DNA of 43,484 nucleotides from Phycisphaerae bacterium (lineage in GTDB: Bacteria; Planctomycetota; Phycisphaerae; UBA1845): positions 1-43,484 of the forward strand of contig JANQHN010000246.1 of NCBI GenBank assembly GCA_028282665.1, given 5' to 3'. Both the position numbers and the translations under genes were made by a program. The notes beneath the pieces are model-generated. The model worked only from the letters and a program-made list of their open reading frames with translations. It did not search any database and was not told the origin of the DNA. Shown piece by piece: positions 17,031 through 39,164 of the stretch; positions within the stretch are counted from its first letter, which is position 1; each line of letters begins with the position of its first letter.

Positions 17031-19010
17031 TTACGATCTTGTTTCCACCAGATCGACGAGCGACTGCACTCGTTTGGCGAGCCGGTTAGTGGGTGGCGTG
17101 TTCGCAATGGCCCGGGCAGCGGATAGGTTTTGGTCGCTTTCACGTACCTGGCTCGTCTCACGGATCAACTCACGCAAATCGGTAAGGCTTTCCTTGCTGC
17201 TGTCGATCAAATGGGCGAGGCGTTCCACTCTACCGGTACGTCTGGGGGGACCAACAGGAAGCACGACTTCCTGCTGCAACGCCGCTTTCTCCTTGATAAT
17301 CCGTTCCTGTTGTTGAGCTTGCTCACCACGCTCTTCGATGCGATCAAGGATACGGCGAAGCACTGCCGTAAGTCGACCGGTACGTTCTGACTGCTTAGCA
17401 AGATTTGTCGTGATTTCCTTGGAGCGGCTTTGCGCTTTTTGGCTTGACTTTGTTTCCACTGCCAGACTTTCGAGAGTTTTTTTCGTATCGCCCAACATGG
17501 AACGAGCGATCTCCACGAGCGTTTTTACCTGTTCCTCTCGTTTGTTGAGGTCAGCGGAAACCTTAACGAACTCGCTGATTGACTCCCCAGCTGATCGGCA
17601 CATCAGTTCAAGCTGTGCTTTTAGCTCCTGTCCTTCCCGTAAATTCTTTTCAAGGTCATCGATGGGACGATCAACCGAGGCCAATCGTTCGCCCATCGCC
17701 GACAGCCGAGCGTTGATTTCCATTTGGGCAGCACGTAATTCATCACGTTGTACAGTGTTCGTTCCATTGCGATCAATCTTGTCGACACGGCGCGCCAGGA
17801 CGGTGATATCGCCGGTTAGTTCACGGCGCAATTCGCGGAGCGCTCCGCGGTCGCTATGATTCACTCCCGAACGTTCCATGCGTTCGACGCGGCCCGCAAG
17901 GTCTCTTAGCGTCGCAAGAATATCCGCTGCCTGCTCACGACCCAAACCACCTCCGCCTCCTCCGGTTATGTCTCGGCGGAAGAGCACACGGTCCAGCCGG
18001 TCTTCGATCATCAGCAAACGAGATGCGAGCGTGTAGTAGTCTGACGATCGACCGACCTGCGGCGAAGCGTCATGATCCTGCTCCGTATAGGCATCGTCAC
18101 AATGACGATCGCGGAGCCGATCCTCGCGAACTGCATTTGACAGCGAAGCGATCACGCGCGTCGAGGAACGCATCGACGGCACTTCGCCTCCCGCGGGCGA
18201 GCCTATGGTCATCATCTGATCGACTACCGAATCGACAAACCCGCCGTCGATCTTGTGGCGATCCGCCGAGTAGGCGCTGAGCATCGCGTTATCACAAATA
18301 GTGTTAATGACGCGCGGCAGTCCTTGCGATTCCTCATAGATACGATCGATGGCCGATGTCGTGAAGATGCTCAAATCGGTTGCGCCCGCCACAGACAGGC
18401 GGTGCTTGATGTAACCTTCCGCAAGCTTCCTACTCAATTGTGGCAGGTGAAAGCTGCGAAAGATGCGCTGTTTGAGCTGGCGCAATTCGCGCGATTCGAA
18501 TGTCGTGCGCAGTTCAGGTTGGCCTAGAATGACGATTTGCAACAGCTTTGCGTCATCGGCTTCGAGGTTCCCGATCATGCGCAATTGATCGAACACAGCG
18601 GGGGGTAGGCTTTGCGCTTCATCCAACACCAGCACCGTGGGCGTGTTTTGCGCGAACTGCGCTAACAAGTAGTCGTGCAGGATGCGAACCATCTGCGCAT
18701 TCGTTGCGTCTTCAGGATGTTGCAATTCGAACTCTGACAGGATGGTTTCCATCAGGTCAGACGGATCAGTCGTCGCGTGGTTGATCGTTGCGAAGCAGAT
18801 TTTCGTCCCAAAATGCCGGAGCATAAGCCTGGAGACCAGTGTCTTGCCGGCTCCCACTTCACCCGTAAGCAATACGAATCCTTTGCGTTCACTAACCGCA
18901 TAGATGAGTGACGCGAGCGCTTCCTCGTGATCCGGCGTCGAGAAAAAGAAACGCGGATCGGGTGTATTATTGAAGGGCAACTCCCGGAGTCCAAAAAAGT
19001 CCGCATACAT
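17031..19010 (-). CDS. ExeA/MshM-like AAA+ ATPase with C-terminal coiled coil, exosortase/EPS-associated type
   Basis: 659 residues. The start MYADFFGLRELPFNNTPDPR is the signature of ExeA/GspA-like ATPases. Walker A is GEVGAGKT at 50-57 and Walker B is VLVLDEAQ at 126-133. The AAA domain ends near residue 270 (LPRVINTICDNAMLSAY). The remaining roughly 390 residues are polar and predicted to form long coiled coils (LRDLAGRVERMERSG, IDDLEKNLREGQELKAQLELM, LDRIEERGEQAQQQER). ExeA in Aeromonas helps assemble a secretion pore; a related ATPase is a standard member of exosortase (XrtA)/EPS gene clusters. The divergent Wza-like gene and the PEP-CTERM protease in this window support the second context. 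The frame is open from 19100, but the family start at 19010 has AGAGAG upstream. It lacks the C-terminal peptidoglycan-binding domain of ExeA. Confidence 0.85.
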   Translation of the reverse strand: MYADFFGLRELPFNNTPDPRFFFSTPDHEEALASLIYAVSERKGFVLLTGEVGAGKTLVSRLMLRHFGTKICFATINHATTDPSDLMETILSEFELQHPEDATNAQMVRILHDYLLAQFAQNTPTVLVLDEAQSLPPAVFDQLRMIGNLEADDAKLLQIVILGQPELRTTFESRELRQLKQRIFRSFHLPQLSRKLAEGYIKHRLSVAGATDLSIFTTSAIDRIYEESQGLPRVINTICDNAMLSAYSADRHKIDGGFVDSVVDQMMTIGSPAGGEVPSMRSSTRVIASLSNAVREDRLRDRHCDDAYTEQDHDASPQVGRSSDYYTLASRLLMIEDRLDRVLFRRDITGGGGGGLGREQAADILATLRDLAGRVERMERSGVNHSDRGALRELRRELTGDITVLARRVDKIDRNGTNTVQRDELRAAQMEINARLSAMGERLASVDRPIDDLEKNLREGQELKAQLELMCRSAGESISEFVKVSADLNKREEQVKTLVEIARSMLGDTKKTLESLAVETKSSQKAQSRSKEITTNLAKQSERTGRLTAVLRRILDRIEERGEQAQQQERIIKEKAALQQEVVLPVGPPRRTGRVERLAHLIDSSKESLTDLRELIRETSQVRESDQNLSAARAIANTPPTNRLAKRVQSLVDLVETRS

Positions 19011-19325
19011 GTTGCATCTCTCTTGCGCGCAAAGGACTCGACCGGCCCGCAGGGGGCCTACCTGAAGAATATCGGTCCCAATGCAGCGATCCTTAAACAC
19101 GGTGAATGCAGTCGATCAGAGAGTGATCAGAGTTTATTCGGACCTTAGGGGTAGCTGAAATGTGCGCGCGGCACTTATTATCGCCCAGGTCTGAATAATC
19201 ATGCTCCGATAGATTCAGGCGTCCCCCTGGTAACCCGATAAGTCGAGCGTGGAGAAAGCAAGCCGATAACGTGCGGGCACCGGTCCGCGCACGGATCTTG
19301 ATGAATGCGTTGATCGGAGGCGATC
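19011..19325. other. Divergent promoter region of the EPS locus
   Basis: 315 bp between the ATPase gene and the divergent Wza-like gene. I saw no sigma-54 site with correct GG-N10-GC spacing and no strong sigma-70 pair. The +strand gene has GGAGG 6 nt before its ATG. Confidence 0.35.
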
Positions 19326-20120
19326 ATGACTGTCAAGCTTTGGTGGTTGCTGGCTTTAGCTGTGCCTGTCATGGCGGCCACAGGATGCGCCCCCTCCAAT
19401 AAAGATATGCTCCAATTTCTTCGTCAACATGAACACGAAGTCTCCGCCATCGAGTACCGGCTCGGAATTCCGGATGCGGTAGAGATTTCCGCACCGCGCG
19501 TGCTTGAAATCGACGGGCAATCTCAAACCCTCCAGCCTGACGGTAAGATCACACTCAAATTGTTAGGTGAGGTAAAAATCGTAGGGATGACCGCGAGGGA
19601 AGTCGCCGCCAAGCTAGAAGTTCTCTTAAGCAGGTACTATGTCGATCCCAAAGTTAGCGTGCGCGTCGCGGCCTACGCGAGCAAATCTTATTACGTATAT
19701 GGTCCGACGATTTCGGGCGGAGAAAAACCCTACACCGGCCATGATACTCTACTCGATGCCGTGTTGGCGTCTGGTGTTGATTATCGCGCATGGACAAGCA
19801 GGATCGAAGTCATCCGACCGACAGTCGACGCGGAAGATCCGAAACGCATCGTTGTGGATGTGAACAGGATGATCCGTGAGGGGGATTGGCGTCAGAACAT
19901 ACTGCTTGAACCGGACGATGTGGTCTACGTTCCACCTACACCGCTTGCTTGGGTCGGGCTTAAGGTGCGAGAGTTGCTCGATCCGGTATCGCCCGCGATA
20001 CAGGCTTATCAGGCACCGGCTACGCTGATGAATGCGAACGATGTGTACAATGATGACGACGATAACAACAATGCCTACCGGACGCGAGGCGCACGGTCTG
20101 TCATACGCAGATTGCGATGA
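19326..20120 (+). CDS. Wza-like polysaccharide export lipoprotein
   Basis: 264 residues. The lipoprotein signal ends in the lipobox AATGC (Cys near residue 21). The polysaccharide export domain follows (YRLGIPDAVEISAPRVLEIDG, LQPDGKITLKLLGEVKIVGMTAREVAAKLEVLLSR in sense), then an SLBB-like beta-grasp region (SYYVYGPTISGGEKPYTGHDTLLDAVLASG) and the typical end of the domain, LLEPDDVVYVPPTPLAWVG. Wza-type proteins form the outer-membrane channel for capsule or exopolysaccharide. At 264 residues it is shorter than E. coli Wza (about 380) and appears to have one SLBB repeat and a disordered Asp/Asn-rich tail. It heads a plus-strand run with the kinase gene 74 bp downstream. Confidence 0.88.
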   Translation: MTVKLWWLLALAVPVMAATGCAPSNKDMLQFLRQHEHEVSAIEYRLGIPDAVEISAPRVLEIDGQSQTLQPDGKITLKLLGEVKIVGMTAREVAAKLEVLLSRYYVDPKVSVRVAAYASKSYYVYGPTISGGEKPYTGHDTLLDAVLASGVDYRAWTSRIEVIRPTVDAEDPKRIVVDVNRMIREGDWRQNILLEPDDVVYVPPTPLAWVGLKVRELLDPVSPAIQAYQAPATLMNANDVYNDDDDNNNAYRTRGARSVIRRLR

Positions 20121-20194
20121 TTTTCAGAAAAGGGACAGGTGCCGGATGGTAAGACCGTTTCGCAATGAGGTAGTTTTAGGTGAGGTAGCCGTAC

Positions 20195-21112
20195 ATGGGT
20201 AGAATTGCCGACGCATTGAAACGAGCAGAGGAGGAACGGCGGCGCTCCACGGAGGATGTGATCCAAAAACCGAGCGGCGCTACGACCACCATGCTACCGC
20301 TCGAACCCGGCAAGTCACCGGAACTAAGCGCGGTGGATAACGACCTCGCGAACGATGAGGACGAACAGCCGGTTAAGTTGATCGACAGTATGAGCGAGGC
20401 TCTGGTTCCTTATTACGAACCCTCTTCGCTCATCAGCGAGCAGTACCGCGGTTTGCGAACGCGTCTTTTAAGCTCCAATCCACAGTACGAACACCGGATT
20501 GTCGCAATCACCAGCGGCGCTCCCAAAGAAGGCAAGAGTGTTACGACCCTTAACCTCAGTTCGATTCTTGCAGAAATACGCCACCTGAAGGTATTGGCGG
20601 TCGACGGTGACTTTCGGCGATCGAGCCTCGCGAAAATGCTGGGTCTGCCTGGCAAACCCGGACTCGCAGACGTGCTGGATGGACAGGCGACGTACGAAGA
20701 AGTAATTCAGGAAACGCCGATCCCTAACATGTACCTTATGCCTTCAGGCAGCAGAGGCGAACGGTCTGCGGCGGAATTGCTTTCGTCAACCAGCACGAGG
20801 CATATCTTCCGCCAGATGCAAAACGACTTTCATTACACCGTTGTCGATACGCCACCCGCAACCACAGTGACGGACGTAGGCATCATCGGACAGATGTGTC
20901 ACGGCGTCATCGTAATCGTGCGCATGAACAAATCACACCAGGCCGTCGCCAAACAGGCAGTGAAACTCCTCCAGGTAAACAACATTCCGATCCTTGGTTG
21001 TTTGGTCATCGGTCGGGATTCACCGGGCTCTCGCTATGGCTACGGGTACGGATATTATTATCGACGTTACTACAATTATTATAATTATTACAACAAACCG
21101 TCAAGCGACTAA
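20195..21112 (+). CDS. BY-type tyrosine kinase/CpsD-like ATPase for exopolysaccharide synthesis
   Basis: 305 residues. It begins MGRIADALKRAEEERRR, as do kinases of exosortase-linked EPS loci. Walker A is GAPKEGKS at 108-115, Walker A' is VLAVDGDFRRSSLAKMLG and the Walker B region is YTVVDTPPA. The C-terminus is a cluster of about 13 tyrosines (YGYGYGYYYRRYYNYYNYY), the expected autophosphorylation tail. Phosphorylation of such clusters controls oligomerisation and chain length of exported polysaccharide. The cytoplasmic kinase is not fused to a Wzz domain, and no separate Wzz-like gene is visible in this window, so a membrane partner must lie elsewhere. GAGG lies 9 nt before the ATG. Confidence 0.92.
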   Translation: MGRIADALKRAEEERRRSTEDVIQKPSGATTTMLPLEPGKSPELSAVDNDLANDEDEQPVKLIDSMSEALVPYYEPSSLISEQYRGLRTRLLSSNPQYEHRIVAITSGAPKEGKSVTTLNLSSILAEIRHLKVLAVDGDFRRSSLAKMLGLPGKPGLADVLDGQATYEEVIQETPIPNMYLMPSGSRGERSAAELLSSTSTRHIFRQMQNDFHYTVVDTPPATTVTDVGIIGQMCHGVIVIVRMNKSHQAVAKQAVKLLQVNNIPILGCLVIGRDSPGSRYGYGYGYYYRRYYNYYNYYNKPSSD

Positions 21113-25285: not shown

Positions 25286-25537
25286 ATGAAACGAACGAAT
25301 CCGACATTTTTTCTGCTTAGCGGCCTCGCGCTTCTCCATCCCGGATGCGTCATCGGAATCCCTCAAGGAAATCAGTTCCCCGACGCTATCCGCGCGAATG
25401 ACGGCAGCATCATCCTTCGCGAAGATCTCGAGGAAATCGCCAATGACGAAGACCTCACCGAGGAGGACAAGCGTCAAGCCATTATCGACCTTGGTATTGA
25501 AGATCCGGATCTGATTGAGGCGATTCTTGAACTGTAG
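25286..25537 (+). CDS. Small acidic lipoprotein
   Basis: 83 residues. The signal peptide MKRTNPTFFLLSGLALLHPGC ends in a lipobox-like LHPGC (Cys at 21). The mature part is strongly acidic (EDLEEIANDEDLTEEDKRQ) and probably helical. No family is recognised. It lies 109 bp after the large glycosyltransferase gene and may be part of its transcript. A short dispersed repeat follows its stop. Confidence 0.65.
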   Translation: MKRTNPTFFLLSGLALLHPGCVIGIPQGNQFPDAIRANDGSIILREDLEEIANDEDLTEEDKRQAIIDLGIEDPDLIEAILEL

Positions 25538-25560
25538 AACAAGTTCTGATCGGGTGTGGC

Positions 25561-25576
25561 TCCGACACCGTATTTT
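25561..25576 (+). repeat. Short dispersed repeat, copy B
   Basis: TCCGACACCGTATTTT matches copy A at 6253-6268 with one mismatch. It lies 23 bp after the stop of the small lipoprotein gene. Confidence 0.35.
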
Positions 25577-25825
25577 CCCATGATAACATTTCCTCTTGCA
25601 GGCGAGGTTCGTTCGTAAGACAATGGGGGGAGCATCACAAAAGAACCTCGTACTTAAAATCGGCATCACGGCCTTTTGCGGTACGTTCCTCCACTTTGGC
25701 GCAGCCAGCCACTTCAATTCTGATACAATAAACCGTGTTGATACATGATCAGGCCCCGTGATTGTACTCACGCATACTCTATATGCCTGTGTGAACCGGG
25801 TTCGATGCTGCCCTAATCGAACATC

Positions 25826-27907
25826 ATGAAACGGGAAAAAGACTTCACCTTCGACGATCAGCTCAAAGACACGCTGCTCCTGGCCGCGACGAGCTTAGGA
25901 GAAGTGCTTGACATCAAAATTGTTGTCGAACGTTTGCGAGAAATATTGTCCAGCGTGCCCGGCTTGCATCAGGGAGGCTTGGGCGTGTACGACATCGAGC
26001 GTAAAACGGTCACACTTTACAGCTTCAAACCAACGCAAGCCGCAGGTACCAAATCGAACGATGATCCGATCGAAGTTCGTGAAGAAGCGGGCGCAGACGC
26101 GGGTATTCACTACGTTGACCATCCCCCTGAGCTATATCTTTCTCCCGATCTTGTTTCGTTACGCACCCTGCCATTACAGGACCATTTGTTCGAATGCGGC
26201 GTGCGTCGCTATGCCAACGCAACCCTCATGGTCGAAAACCAATTGCTAGGAAGTGTCTACATCGGTTTTGCCGATTCTACATCATTGCAACAGGAAGTCG
26301 TCGAGTTTCTAAAACGCTTGGCGAAAATTCTCTCGCCGATATTGTGGAACTGCGAAAAACATATTCGCTTCAGTCACGGCGACGTTCGGCGCGACGCACT
26401 TATTAGGCTTGGCGATGCCATCAACCAGTCGCTGAAGATCGACACGATCCTCTCGTCCGCTCGGTCTGCCATAAAAACCCTCTCAGGGCACGTGCTCAGT
26501 TCCATCAACCTCCTCGTCAAGAATGGCGAATCGTTTCTCTCCTATGTCGACATCACCGGACCGACCGAGAAAAAACCAGGCGCAGAAACCGTAAATGTCG
26601 CTGGCACCGTTCTCGAATGGATTCAGAAGAATCGAGCGACCTACGAATCAGAGGATCTCGAAAAACAAACCGCGTTCGACCATGATACGTGGCTTGCTTC
26701 ACGTGGCGTGAGGCGTTACGTGGCTGCACCGATGTTCGTGCGCGGCAGGATCATTGGTTGTTTTCTGATGGGTTGCGCCGATCCCAGAAAAACACTGCAC
26801 ATCGATATTTGGCTTTACGAAAACATCGCCTTGCAACTAGCGCTGGCCATCGACAACGCCAGTCAACTGGAAGAAGTACAGCGCCTATCTTCCCGTCTCG
26901 CCCAACAAAATGTCTATTTGCGGGAGGAGATTGAGAGCGAGCATAACTTTACCGCCATGGTCGGTGAAACCCCCGAGATGCGCGCGATTCAAGAAACGGT
27001 GCGAAGGGTCGCCCCCACCAACTCCACCGTCCTAATACTTGGGGAAACCGGTGTGGGCAAGGAACTTGTCGCTCGCGCGATTCATGAGGCGAGTGACCGT
27101 TCGGCATCACCTATGGTGAAAGTCAACTGCGCCGCGATTCCCGAGGGCATGGTCGAAAGTGAGTTATTCGGCCACGAAAAGGGCGCATTTACCTCAGCCA
27201 TCCAGCGGCGCATCGGCCGGTTCGAACTCGCCCATGAAGGTACGATCTTCCTTGACGAAGTCGGCGAATTGCCATTGGCGGTGCAATCCAAACTGCTCCG
27301 CGTGTTGCAGGACATGCAGTTCGAACGCGTCGGCGGAACCAAAACCCTCACTACAGATGTCCGAATCATCGCCGCCACGAATCGCAACCTCCAAAAAAGC
27401 TCCGAACAGGGCACGTTTCGTAGCGACTTGTACTATCGACTGAACGTCTTTCCAATCACCGTTCCACCACTGCGCGATCGTGCAGGTGACGTACCGCTGC
27501 TGATCGAGGCTTTCATCTCACACTTCAATCGCCAAATGGGTAAGCGTGTCGAAAGCATCAGTCCCGAATCCCTCGAACTTTGCCTGCGGAAAGATTGGCC
27601 TGGCAATGTCCGCGAACTCCGCCACGAGATCGAACGGGCGATGATCCTCTGCGACGGCACGACCCTCACTCTTCGGCTGGACCAGTATCAGTCCACCCAA
27701 TCGGCGGTACCGCCCACGATCACCACATCCGACAAACTGATGACCCTAAGCGAAGCAGAAGCTGAGCACATCCGACGAGCTCTCGCCCATACCAACGGTG
27801 TGATCGAAGGACCGGGCGGGGCGGCTGCCCTTCTCGACATCAACCCATCCACACTGCGCTTTCGAATGAAGCGACTGGGCATCCGACGAGACAATTCTAA
27901 CCCGTAA
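25826..27907 (+). CDS. Sigma-54-dependent transcriptional activator with two GAF domains
   Basis: 693 residues. Two GAF-like sensory domains lie at about 10-175 and 190-355. The second contains a typical end, RRYVAAPMFVRGRIIGCFLMG. A short coiled coil leads to the sigma-54 AAA+ domain, with Walker A GETGVGKE (406-413), the loop-1 motif GAFTSA (453-458), Walker B GTIFLDEVGELPL and the sensor/arginine-finger region DLYYRLNVFPITVPPLRDR. The C-terminus is a Fis-type helix-turn-helix (AAALLDINPSTLRFRMKRLGI). This is the FhlA/NorR-like layout: ligand binding to GAF relieves AAA inhibition and opens sigma-54 promoters. Loop 1 normally reads GAFTGA; the G-to-S change is seen in some active members. 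A good -24/-12 promoter lies 159 bp downstream of its stop, before the HAF-repeat gene, a probable target. The ligand is unknown. Confidence 0.93.
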   Translation: MKREKDFTFDDQLKDTLLLAATSLGEVLDIKIVVERLREILSSVPGLHQGGLGVYDIERKTVTLYSFKPTQAAGTKSNDDPIEVREEAGADAGIHYVDHPPELYLSPDLVSLRTLPLQDHLFECGVRRYANATLMVENQLLGSVYIGFADSTSLQQEVVEFLKRLAKILSPILWNCEKHIRFSHGDVRRDALIRLGDAINQSLKIDTILSSARSAIKTLSGHVLSSINLLVKNGESFLSYVDITGPTEKKPGAETVNVAGTVLEWIQKNRATYESEDLEKQTAFDHDTWLASRGVRRYVAAPMFVRGRIIGCFLMGCADPRKTLHIDIWLYENIALQLALAIDNASQLEEVQRLSSRLAQQNVYLREEIESEHNFTAMVGETPEMRAIQETVRRVAPTNSTVLILGETGVGKELVARAIHEASDRSASPMVKVNCAAIPEGMVESELFGHEKGAFTSAIQRRIGRFELAHEGTIFLDEVGELPLAVQSKLLRVLQDMQFERVGGTKTLTTDVRIIAATNRNLQKSSEQGTFRSDLYYRLNVFPITVPPLRDRAGDVPLLIEAFISHFNRQMGKRVESISPESLELCLRKDWPGNVRELRHEIERAMILCDGTTLTLRLDQYQSTQSAVPPTITTSDKLMTLSEAEAEHIRRALAHTNGVIEGPGGAAALLDINPSTLRFRMKRLGIRRDNSNP

Positions 27908-27931
27908 TATACTACGGCCGCCCGCCAAATA

Positions 27932-27950
27932 CTGCGGATTGAATCCGCAG
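27932..27950. terminator. Hairpin after the sigma-54 activator gene, no T-tract
   Basis: CTGCGGATT and AATCCGCAG form a perfect 9-bp palindromic arm pair with a single central G, so in RNA about 7 bp with a 5-nt loop. It lies 25 bp past the stop. No T-run follows, so a rho-independent terminator is uncertain; it could also be a protein-binding dyad. Confidence 0.4.
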
Positions 27951-28065
27951 CATGTTACGGAATTGGTTGGTTCAGGCCAAGTAATCCCTCAAACAATGCC
28001 AACAAAAATCGCGTTTCAAATACTAAAATGGCGATTTTGATGTCTTTTTTGTCCGAATTCGGCCG

Positions 28066-28081
28066 TGGCATCCCCATTGCA
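28066..28081 (+). promoter_or_regulatory. Sigma-54 (-24/-12) promoter
   Basis: TGGCATCCCCATTGCA matches the RpoN consensus TGGCAC-N5-TTGCA with one change, and GG and GC are exactly 10 bp apart. It is followed by a T-rich stretch. Transcription would begin near 28092, giving a leader of about 160 nt for the HAF-repeat gene. The neighbouring sigma-54 activator gene makes a functional promoter likely. Confidence 0.72.
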
Positions 28082-28091
28082 TTTTTTAGAA

Positions 28092-28251
28092 AGGTGTCGA
28101 AGCGGCGAGTAATCGCTTCGATTCGCATCGCGGCGGAGTCACCCCAATTGGAATAATGAATCCTGGGGTGGATCAGTTCATGGGGTGATTCCCCCGTGGG
28201 CGGTTGGACAGAGAGTAAGAGTGCGTCCTTTTGAATATTGAGGAGGTAATG
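28092..28251 (+). promoter_or_regulatory. Structured 5' leader of the HAF-repeat gene
   Basis: CACCCCA (28140-28146) can pair with TGGGGTG at either 28164-28170 or 28181-28187. The two hairpins exclude each other. The leader ends in a very strong ribosome site, AGGAGGT at 28241-28247. I found no match to a known riboswitch class. Confidence 0.35.
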
Positions 28252-29511
28252 ATGAAAGCACAAGGAACAAGGCGAATTGCGTTAATGGCGATCCTGGGTC
28301 TGTTGGCAACGAACACAGCATCTACAAAGGCTGACGATTTTTCGTTCTCGAAGAAAAAAGCTGTTGCTCCGAATTTCAGTGTTCTGCGAATCGACGAACT
28401 GAGAAATGCTCAAACCATCCCCCTCGCTCTGAACGACAAGGGGGTCACCACGGGTCGTTCACAGGTGTATTACACCAACAACGCATTTCTAGCGCTATCC
28501 AATGGTGACATCGAAAACATTCAAACGGAAGAAGTCGAGTGGAGTTTAGGACAGGTCATTAACATCGCCGGTCAGGTTGGCGGATACATGGGGGTGTGGG
28601 AAAATGGGACGATCGTCAAGCGGCCTTTCCGATACAGCGAAGATGAAGGCATGATCGACTTGGGAACTCCCGAAGGCACAAATGCCAGCATCGTGGATAT
28701 CAATGACAAGGGCGAGGTATTAGGCTATTTCACCGAAATTGGTTCGCATTGGCCTCGACACGGGTTTATCTACACTGACGACGATGGCTTTCAGGCACTG
28801 GGGACGCTTCGCCAGAACGGTTCGACACAAGTCTTTGACATCAATAATCACGGTGACGTTGTCGGCACGACTACCGGTCCGAATTGGGAGACGCACGCAA
28901 TTCTGTGGAGCGGTGGCCAGATGATCGACCTTACCGATCTGGGCATGCCCGGCTACGTCACCACAATCAACGACAACGGTCTGATGGCAGGTACGTTCAA
29001 GATCGACTGGGCTTACACCCAGGCGATGACCTATTCACTGACTGAGGGGCTGAGCGTAATCCCCCTGCCTGAATGGGCCAACACCTCCGAAGCGAAATCG
29101 ATCGATGCCAACGGCACCGTTTACGGCGAGGTCAATTCTTCGTTTGACCACGACGGGTTTTACTACAACGAAACGGAGGGGTTCGTCCGGATGAACCTGC
29201 GGGAAAAAAACCAGTCGCTGTTCGGTGTGGCCATCGTAGGTAAAAACGGTTGGGTCGGGGCGCATCTCCATGACGGCACGGCGTATTCGACAGGACTGAT
29301 TTACTCGAAGGATTTCGGCGTCCACCGTCTGGATGAACTTGTAGGCGACCAGATTCCTAGCTCAGAAATGGAAATCGTGGGCATCAACGCCTCAGGTCAG
29401 ATCGCATTGAAGGTCTTTGACTTCGACAAAAACCAATGGACGGCGTTCCTTTTGACACCTCATGCCGAACCATCGATTAGCTCATCTCACAGGATAAACA
29501 ACCGCCGCTAA
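28252..29511 (+). CDS. Secreted HAF-repeat protein
   Basis: About 419 residues. A signal peptide (IALMAILGLLATNTASTKA) comes first. The rest is a series of roughly 45-residue repeats with the HAF pattern: 'x-D-I-N-x-x-G-x-V-x-G' strands (IVDINDKGEVLGYF, VFDINNHGDVVGTT, VTTINDNGLMAGTF, SIDANGTVYGEV, VGINASGQIALKV) and labels such as HGFIYTDDDG and HAILWSGGQMIDLTDLG. These form a beta-propeller-like extracellular domain of unknown function. Many homologues end in a PEP-CTERM anchor; here the tail is LLTPHAEPSISSSHRINNRR without a hydrophobic segment, so the protein is probably released. The start is the second of two adjacent ATGs, 4 nt after AGGAGGT. A sigma-54 promoter lies upstream and a strong terminator downstream. 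Confidence 0.82.
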   Translation: MKAQGTRRIALMAILGLLATNTASTKADDFSFSKKKAVAPNFSVLRIDELRNAQTIPLALNDKGVTTGRSQVYYTNNAFLALSNGDIENIQTEEVEWSLGQVINIAGQVGGYMGVWENGTIVKRPFRYSEDEGMIDLGTPEGTNASIVDINDKGEVLGYFTEIGSHWPRHGFIYTDDDGFQALGTLRQNGSTQVFDINNHGDVVGTTTGPNWETHAILWSGGQMIDLTDLGMPGYVTTINDNGLMAGTFKIDWAYTQAMTYSLTEGLSVIPLPEWANTSEAKSIDANGTVYGEVNSSFDHDGFYYNETEGFVRMNLREKNQSLFGVAIVGKNGWVGAHLHDGTAYSTGLIYSKDFGVHRLDELVGDQIPSSEMEIVGINASGQIALKVFDFDKNQWTAFLLTPHAEPSISSSHRINNRR

Positions 29512-29519
29512 CGAAAGCT

Positions 29520-29566
29520 ACCTCCTCACCTCTTGCTGGGCGAACAAGATCATCAAACGAGGAGGT
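29520..29566. repeat. Inverted repeat sequestering an extended Shine-Dalgarno-like sequence
   Basis: ACCTCCTC (29520-29527) pairs with GAGGAGGT (29559-29566). The right arm continues as GGAGGTGATC (29561-29570), the full complement of the usual 16S rRNA 3' end, yet no start codon lies 5-10 nt further on. It lies between the HAF-repeat stop and the terminator. Confidence 0.4.
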
Positions 29567-29599
29567 GATCACGAATCGCCCGACAAAGAGGCACCAAAG

Positions 29600-29645
29600 A
29601 AGGGACGAACCCCATCATGCAGGTTCGTCCCTTTTCTTTTGTTCG
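29600..29645 (+). terminator. Rho-independent terminator after the HAF-repeat gene
   Basis: AAGGGACGAACC (29600-29611) and GGTTCGTCCCTT (29622-29633) form a perfect 12-bp stem with a 10-nt loop, followed by TTCTTTTGTTC. It sits between convergent genes and may also stop minus-strand transcription weakly. Confidence 0.88.
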
Positions 29646-29664
29646 GTCGATGCCGACTGCCAAA

Positions 29665-31035
29665 CTACGCCTTCACGACGTTTTTCTTTGCACCGCGAAC
29701 ACCGTCGGTCGCGTTGCGGGTGTCGATGACCAGTTTCGAGTTTTTAACGATAAAATCGTAGTCATAGGACGTGTGATTCGTTGAAATCAGTACAGCGTCG
29801 TACGATTTGAGCATCGCAGCCGAAAGCTTCTTGCTTGCCATCCGCAAATCGTGCTCGCGCTGTTTGTGCGTACGTGGGATGTGCGGATCGTTGTAATCGA
29901 CTTTCGCACCGTGCTTCCGCAACAGCTCGATCAGTTCGATCGACGGCGATTCACGCAAGTCGTCAACATCCTTTTTGTAGGCAAGACCGAGAACGAGAAT
30001 TTTCGAGCCGTTGATCGGCTTTTTATGGTCGTTGAGTGCGAGGCTGAGCCGCTCGATGACGTATTCGGGCATTGACGTATTGACCTCACCGGCGAGTTCG
30101 ATAAACCGCGTCGGCATGCCGTATTCCTTCGCCTTCCACGTCAGGTAAAACGGATCGATGGGAATGCAGTGCCCGCCAAGACCCGGCCCCGGGTAGAACG
30201 CCTGAAATCCGAATGGCTTGGTTTTGGCAGCCTCGATCACCTCCCACACGTCGATACCCATTCGATCGAAGAGCATCTTTAGTTCGTTGACCATGGCGAT
30301 GTTAACCGCGCGGTAAACGTTTTCGAGGATTTTGGCTGACTCGGCGACTTCGCAACTGTTCGCACCGTGCACATTTGAAATCGCAGCCCCGTACAGCTTC
30401 GTGGAAACTTTGGTGCTTTTCGGCCCAAACCCGCCAACGACTTTCGTGATGGTTTCGGTCGTAAAGTCGGTGCGACCTGGATCTTCACGTTCGGGCGAAA
30501 ACGCGAGGAAGAAATCTTTCTCAGCCTCCAAACCCGATTTCTCGAGGATAGGCTTGACGAGTTCCTTGGTGGTTCCGGGATAAGTGGTGCTTTCGAGAAC
30601 GACAAGCTGACCCGGTCGAAGCTGCTTCGCAATCATTTCCGCCGTACTTACAACATAACTCATGTCCGGGTCGCGCATCTTCGTGAGCGGGGTGGGTACG
30701 CAGATCAGAATCGCGTCCACCTTGCGAAGGGTTTTCGGGTCACAGCTCGCTTCGAACATCCCCTTGCCCCGCATTTCCTTGATGAGTGAAGGCGGAATGT
30801 GCTGGATGTAGCTTTTGCCGGCGTTCAACGCCTTAACCTTTTCTTGATCAATATCAAAGCCGAGACACTTGAACCCCGCACTGCAAAACGTTCGCATAAG
30901 CGGCAGGCCTACGTATCCCATGCCGATGATACCAACGCGCGTCTTGCGATCTTCGATGTCCTTGACGAACGCGTTCGCATCCGCCGCTTTCGTGGTTTTG
31001 CGTGCTTTCTTGTTGCCTGCTGCTTTCCTGGCCAT
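29665..31035 (-). CDS. Nucleotide-sugar dehydrogenase (UDP-GlcNAc/ManNAc 6-dehydrogenase type)
   Basis: 456 residues. A Lys-rich N-terminal tail is followed by the NAD Rossmann motif VGIIGMGYVGLPL (34-46). The catalytic Cys is at about residue 290 in GLGGHCIPIDPFYL, the signature of the WbpA/TviB/WecC branch; UDP-glucose dehydrogenases more often read GFGGSCFPKD. The C-terminal UDP-binding domain contains KILVLGLAYKKDVDDLRESPSIELI. These enzymes oxidise C6 of a UDP-N-acetylhexosamine to a uronic acid, using two NAD+, for surface polysaccharides. A DegT aminotransferase is encoded divergently, and an EPS locus lies nearby, so a role in precursor supply is likely. The exact sugar is not determined. 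AAGGA lies about 10 nt before the ATG. Confidence 0.92.
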   Translation of the reverse strand: MARKAAGNKKARKTTKAADANAFVKDIEDRKTRVGIIGMGYVGLPLMRTFCSAGFKCLGFDIDQEKVKALNAGKSYIQHIPPSLIKEMRGKGMFEASCDPKTLRKVDAILICVPTPLTKMRDPDMSYVVSTAEMIAKQLRPGQLVVLESTTYPGTTKELVKPILEKSGLEAEKDFFLAFSPEREDPGRTDFTTETITKVVGGFGPKSTKVSTKLYGAAISNVHGANSCEVAESAKILENVYRAVNIAMVNELKMLFDRMGIDVWEVIEAAKTKPFGFQAFYPGPGLGGHCIPIDPFYLTWKAKEYGMPTRFIELAGEVNTSMPEYVIERLSLALNDHKKPINGSKILVLGLAYKKDVDDLRESPSIELIELLRKHGAKVDYNDPHIPRTHKQREHDLRMASKKLSAAMLKSYDAVLISTNHTSYDYDFIVKNSKLVIDTRNATDGVRGAKKNVVKA

Positions 31036-38198: not shown

Positions 38199-39164
38199 TC
38201 AACGCCGACGGATAAGAACAAACCAGCACGCACCGAGCAGCACGAATGTGCCAGGCTCAGGAATCGATGCAATCGTGTCGTCGATCCAGTCGTTGAATAG
38301 GGAAAGACGCATACCGGCTGTGGAGCCAAAGTAATTCGGTGCGCCGGACTGGAAGCTCGAAATCCCCATAAGCTGCATCTCGCCCTCGACATCGATATAC
38401 CACCCGCCGCCGGAATCCCCCGGGATTCCAATGCCACCCAGAGGTTGATACGCCGGGTGACCCGGCGGAACGAACCGCATCACCGCGAAGTGCTCGGCAG
38501 CGCCGAAAGGCGGAAAGCCGAATTCGGTAAGTAAATTCTGACATGCACGTAGCCGGCCTGGGTCGTCACCCACACCTCCCGATGGCGTGGCGTCAACGCC
38601 GAAACCCGCCATGTCGATAAGGTTGCCGATCTGGTCCGTTCCACGGAAACGGGTTGCAGGTTCGACGCCCACGATCGGATCATCAAAGTAGAGGAGAGCC
38701 AGATCAACACCGGTAACGGTGTAGTCCCAATCGGGATGCGAAAACCACTGGTCAGCGACGAAGGTTTGCCCCGGGTCGTCCCAGACGTGCGTGCCCGTGC
38801 CGATACGCGCCCCTATATGCTCGAACTGATTATCCTCATCGAAAAGCGTGTGGGCCGCAGTCAGCGCCCAATGCGGATCAATCACGACGGATGAGCCCTT
38901 CCAAACGTCACCGTCATCGTTGATGCCGGACAACCAAACCATCGAACTGAAATTCAGGCCGTGTTGCCGGTAGAGCAGATCATCCACGCCATCATGCCGC
39001 CCGATCCCCAGGCCGGCCGGAACAAACACACCCATGGAGAACCAAACCACCATAACGGTTCCAATCCGGGCGTAACGCTCAAAAGCGATTTTCCGGCAGT
39101 GCCAAACACGGTGTTGGAGGCTGGCTGGAGCTTGCTCTGGAAGAATTTTTGTTGGTGAATGCAC
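38199..39164 (-). CDS. Trypsin-like serine protease with PEP-CTERM sorting signal
   Basis: 321 residues from a GTG with AGGAG 7 nt upstream. A signal anchor lies at about 33-52. The catalytic triad is visible: His105 in LTAAHT, Asp154 in GVDLALLYF and Ser251 in GIPGDSGGGW. The C-terminus is a classical PEP-CTERM: IPEPGTFVLLGACWFVLIRRR, that is a PEP box, a hydrophobic segment and a basic tail. An exosortase would cleave at PEP and pass the protein to the cell surface or matrix, which links it to the EPS locus at 17031-25176. No exosortase gene is present in the window. It is convergent with the pseudopilin gene; the two stop codons abut in the palindrome TGATCA. Confidence 0.92.
   Translation of the reverse strand: MHSPTKILPEQAPASLQHRVWHCRKIAFERYARIGTVMVVWFSMGVFVPAGLGIGRHDGVDDLLYRQHGLNFSSMVWLSGINDDGDVWKGSSVVIDPHWALTAAHTLFDEDNQFEHIGARIGTGTHVWDDPGQTFVADQWFSHPDWDYTVTGVDLALLYFDDPIVGVEPATRFRGTDQIGNLIDMAGFGVDATPSGGVGDDPGRLRACQNLLTEFGFPPFGAAEHFAVMRFVPPGHPAYQPLGGIGIPGDSGGGWYIDVEGEMQLMGISSFQSGAPNYFGSTAGMRLSLFNDWIDDTIASIPEPGTFVLLGACWFVLIRRR

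Follow-up and report, generated by a model that had tools for sequence, protein, structure and literature searches.

We identified a putative sigma-54 (-24/-12) promoter, TGGCATCCCCATTGCA, at positions 28066-28081 (+) of the analysed window (the whole stretch of 43,484 nucleotides), through which the adjacent activator probably drives a HAF-repeat gene in cis with the help of RpoN. The sigma-54 activator (bEBP; 693 aa) is encoded upstream at 25826-27907 (+) and the HAF-repeat protein (419 aa) downstream at 28252-29511 (+). A protein of this type is thereby given a promoter that can be checked, along with a probable regulator. According to the proposed mechanism, the cytoplasmic activator would sense its signal via GAF-type domains and contact upstream DNA with its HTH_8 domain, its AAA+ ATPase would open the promoter for the RpoN polymerase, and the polymerase would transcribe the HAF gene. 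The product would be a secreted beta-propeller-type protein acting in a cell-surface or polysaccharide context.

The position of the site between the activator gene and the HAF-repeat gene, as given in the preliminary description, was confirmed: it is intergenic, 158 nt past the stop of the activator gene, with the HAF start codon (ATG, 28252) following after about 171 nt, and is oriented toward the HAF gene within a gap of 344 nt. The exact GG-N10-GC spacing, which had been emphasised, is indeed present (GG at 28067-28068, GC at 28079-28080), but it is uninformative by itself because the window contains 420 such pairs compared with 451 expected. For the longer consensus TGGCAYN5TTGCW, TGGCATCCCCATTGCA is the only exact match in the window, and five matches with one mismatch were found versus 2.55 expected. 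The site also ranked first in a scan of the window with an approximate -24/-12 matrix constructed from the consensus, reaching 14.9 bits with the runner-up at 12.8 bits. Chance alone would give about 0.3 sites of this quality per window, counting both strands, and scores of 13-14.9 bits are attained by roughly 0.1-0.3% of random stretches 360 nt long. Judged from its sequence, TGGCATCCCCATTGCA looks like a genuine sigma-54 promoter, with a transcript start predicted near 28092, since transcription usually begins about 12 nt past the -12 element.

The region 25400-29700 yielded no sigma-70-like promoter, which favours use of the sigma-54 site. No terminator was found in the gap between the two genes either, so HAF mRNA could also arise by read-through that starts from the activator gene. 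The latter point favours an alternative that we consider quite improbable, namely that the match is due to chance and HAF transcription relies on read-through or on a sigma-70 or ECF promoter that went unrecognised. Against it stands that the best site of the entire window is found in the correct place and direction.

The gene rpoN, on which the preliminary description had made the promoter depend, is encoded on contig C317 of the genome (PF04552, E 6e-54). Genome-wide, 19 exact matches to TGGCAYN5TTGCW were counted versus 7 in a reversed control. The roughly seven exact matches per genome to be expected from this control and the several matches that fall within genes both lend some weight to a chance origin of the site. 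Other exact matches precede genes for alanine dehydrogenase, cytochrome bd oxidase, a pyruvate/ferredoxin oxidoreductase relative, a 2Fe-2S (NuoE-like) protein and a subtilase. The sigma-54-like sites before redox genes, together with at least seven further activator-like proteins in the genome, would fit a second alternative: the promoter is real, but mainly worked by another activator, and the neighbouring protein acts elsewhere, for instance at further sigma-54 promoters of the genome or within the polysaccharide cluster. We regard this as unlikely, since adjoining sigma-54 sites recur in orthologs as well as in other activator subfamilies and the pairing with a HAF gene recurs in another genome (see below). 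A second candidate activator-promoter-target pair of the same genome is present at L275 (contig C444), where a 14.1-bit sigma-54 site (L275:4050-4065) follows an activator with a GAFTDA loop and is itself followed by an ApbE-family gene.

The upstream gene had been described as coding for a GAF-type sigma-54 activator, and the profile searches bear this out. The protein matches PF00158 (AAA+, E 1.4e-71) and, at the C-terminus, PF02954 (HTH_8, Fis-type; E 4.7e-6), and a GAF domain was detected at approximately residues 242-343. This is the second GAF of a GAF-type N-terminus, in which a visible internal repeat suggests the first one. A receiver domain was not reported in the profile search. The order of a non-receiver sensor, AAA+ and HTH_8 is the same as in type Ib enhancer-binding proteins (NifA, FhlA, NorR), and the best NCBIfam matches are FhlA (PRK15429), NifA and NorR, all under their cut-offs. 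The window shares with type Ib systems the usual placement of the activator gene next to a -24/-12 promoter. In contrast to the NifA/FhlA/NorR type, the AAA+ loop of the window activator reads GAFTSA in place of the canonical GAFTGA. The serine is invariant in the clade (unchanged across 11 orthologs), and the other activators sampled in the same order mostly carry GAFTGA or GAFTDA. At position G5 of the loop, S is listed as putatively functional and D has been validated in FlgR (PMC3162934). The predicted targets differ as well, being a secreted propeller-type protein here and nitrogen, formate or nitric-oxide genes there. A further difference is that the clade was found only within one order, with no ortholog outside it among 397 genomes sampled from the class.

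Within the order, orthologs of the activator, recognised by the N-terminal half, are present in 10 of 114 genomes, and an eleventh genome (G095) was added by the HAF search; the clade support is 100/100, with a bootstrap that is not fully settled. At 4 of the 11 orthologous loci a site of at least 13 bits lies within 260 nt past the activator stop (p 5e-8), compared with 0.36% of matched random stretches. When the window is excluded, 3 of 10 ortholog 3' regions retain such a site (p 5e-6), and these strong sites at the same place in three orthologs argue against a chance match. Furthermore, TGGCAY occurs at 130-230 nt past the stop, a range picked after looking, in 7 of 11 cases versus 5% expected.

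L048, L051 and L311 have the -24 element, but their -12 element is degraded. The first and the last of these are the two most telling loci: L048 holds the nearest activator (62%) and has a degraded -12 element (TGGCATAACGCGTACA) and no adjoining HAF gene, while L311 is the other HAF pair (activator 58% identical, HAF protein 32%) and reads TGGCACACCGCGTGAC. The degradation at both loci speaks against the cis model and for a chance match, and the departure of GAFTSA from the canonical GAFTGA would likewise count against control by the neighbour. At two further loci, sites are found on the other flank: in L099 a 14.1-bit site precedes a divergent secreted gene on the opposite side of the activator, and L056 has a second site (14.2 bits) before the upstream propeller gene. 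Sigma-54 sites also adjoin other activator subfamilies, so the layout of an activator beside a promoter is in itself ordinary. In one such subfamily with a GAFTGA loop, L061 and L239 both have a sigma-54 site 136 nt past the stop, which in L061 precedes an HtrA-like secreted protease.

Dyads that could serve as activator sites had been anticipated at 27900-28040. A perfect 9+1+9 palindrome, CTGCGGATTGAATCCGCAG, does lie at 27932-27950, centred some 151 bp before the predicted transcript start, and we take it as a good candidate for the DNA bound by the HTH_8 domain, although it may instead be a hairpin formed in the RNA behind the activator gene. The palindrome is absent at the orthologs, where no dyad common to the promoter regions rose above shuffles, and it is not clearly found at the other sigma-54 sites examined. 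That the palindrome is not common to the orthologs speaks against the cis model, and the missing common activator site is compatible with another activator working the promoter. A role as a regulon-wide activator site was rejected, as the near copies examined elsewhere do not stand before sigma-54 sites. One near copy, on contig C291, lies just past a PEP-CTERM gene and resembles a terminator hairpin.

The predicted target carries a signal peptide by inspection and matches the TIGR02913 repeats with 67.4-67.6 bits (cut-off 22.65). An AlphaFold model of the protein (mean pLDDT 83.5) has an all-strand repeat architecture, and the closest structures in the PDB are beta-propellers, among them virginiamycin B lyase and TolB, at modest TM-scores (about 0.4-0.58); the predicted secreted protein is accordingly modelled as a beta-propeller. 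A GGAGG ribosome-binding site (Shine-Dalgarno) was read from the sequence at 28241-28245 (+). The predicted 5' leader of about 160 nt (28092-28251, +) contains hairpins at approximately 28096-28122 and 28123-28203 and folds strongly (z -4.2 for 28093-28254, and -3.2). Control at the RNA level through these hairpins is possible; in the predicted fold they leave GGAGG near the start codon. We rejected the leader as a conserved structured element, since only the window and L055 stand out among the ortholog leaders and Rfam gave no match.

As HAF-repeat proteins often carry PEP-CTERM, the preliminary description had raised the idea of a PEP-CTERM circuit in which a GAF sensor takes the place of a response regulator. 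The region 17034-21109 of the window encodes relatives of an XrtA/PEP-CTERM-associated ATPase (254.5 bits, cut-off 324.5) and of a tyrosine autokinase (129.4 bits, cut-off 230.65), and glycosyltransferases are also present, which places the window in a polysaccharide cluster of the XrtA type. RpoN together with a dedicated activator does control PEP-CTERM genes in other bacteria, as had been stated: a sigma-54 site is associated with 99 of 167 proteobacterial PEP-CTERM genes (Haft et al. 2006, PMC1569441), and Aquincola pepA is an experimentally RpoN-dependent case (PMC9850573). The system described here resembles PrsK/PrsR-RpoN in combining an RpoN promoter and a dedicated activator near surface or exopolysaccharide functions (PMC1569441, PMC9850573). 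A regulon of this kind would also be in line with 51 candidate PEP-CTERM matches in the genome, about 36 of them above the Pfam cut-off, with two to three exosortases and with the XrtA-associated genes within the window. The abundance of dockerin and PEP-CTERM sequences would also point to a planctomycete.

Nevertheless, the reading as a PEP-CTERM regulon is already contradicted, and we consider it highly improbable. The C-terminus of the HAF protein (...AFLLTPHAEPSISSSHRINNRR) lacks a PEP-CTERM helix, and its alignment with tailed HAF proteins stops short of the helix. No protein of the genome passes the PrsR model (TIGR02915), the best one scoring 415.9 bits against a cut-off of 502.6. The scan for the -24/-12 motif upstream of PEP-CTERM genes, which had been proposed as a check, covered the best 30 genes, 26 of them scorable, and 0 of these 26 reached 12 bits (highest 11.1 bits). 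Elsewhere in the genome, two HAF proteins that do have PEP-CTERM-like tails (contigs C151 and C362) show no such site in the available upstream sequence either, which in the case of C362 amounts to only 15 bases. A PEP-CTERM gene of the window itself, at 38202-39164 (-), is without a notable upstream sigma-54 site. In contrast to PrsK/PrsR, the window activator has no receiver domain, its target has no PEP-CTERM and the 26 scored PEP-CTERM genes have no preceding sigma-54 site. The analogy is right for the proteobacterial cases but wrong here, given the 0 of 26 sites and the missing PrsR, which indicates that this organism does not share the RpoN control of PEP-CTERM genes seen in proteobacteria. 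The combination of a sigma-54 promoter with a secreted or surface product near polysaccharide genes fits the broader view that sigma-54 controls the bacterial exterior, put forward by Francke et al. 2011 (PMC3162934) in a study whose main text makes no mention of planctomycetes.

Returning to control of the HAF gene by its neighbour, we looked at the genes beside the other activators of the clade. A secreted propeller-type neighbour (HAF, FG-GAP or YWTD) is present at 7 of 13 ortholog loci, an association that is to be read as a lead and not as a result because the category was picked with the data in view, the loci are related to one another and the genes were called mechanically. The neighbours are HAF proteins in the window and L311, FG-GAP proteins in L049 and L051, and YWTD/LDL-receptor-B propellers in L050, L052 and L056. 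The neighbour in L099 is similar by eye and matches no propeller model, and L048, L053, L054, L055 and L060 have no propeller neighbour, two of them being at contig ends. By comparison, a phmmer search with the propeller proteins found none among 63 proteins beside 32 other activators, and the 25 commonest families of these 63 control neighbours include no propeller model.

This suggests that one sigma-54 activator sub-clade controls secreted propeller-type surface proteins. We tentatively propose, as a possibility short of a firm expectation, that the order-restricted GAFTSA clade of GAF-type activators acts as an RpoN switch dedicated to secreted beta-propeller proteins that can be swapped (HAF, FG-GAP, YWTD), in which the activator and the promoter position persist while the neighbouring propeller family changes. 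The swappable propeller partners are the sole unusual aspect of the system.

Two further sites were observed during the survey of the ortholog loci. The first, a 16.5-bit match upstream of the activator in L050 (L050:5371-5386), was rejected as a promoter, as the bases concerned code for part of an IPTL-CTERM helix (MALVLL codons); sorting-tail helices can hence mimic -24/-12 sites and mislead promoter scans. The second belongs to L055 (L055:1788-1913), where a truncated activator ortholog is followed by a 13.7-bit sigma-54 site and then by a stretch of about 100 nt (fold z -6.2) that contains a U9 run as well as two strong hairpins. From its sequence, this element resembles a small RNA that is transcribed from a sigma-54 promoter next to its activator and ends at a terminator.
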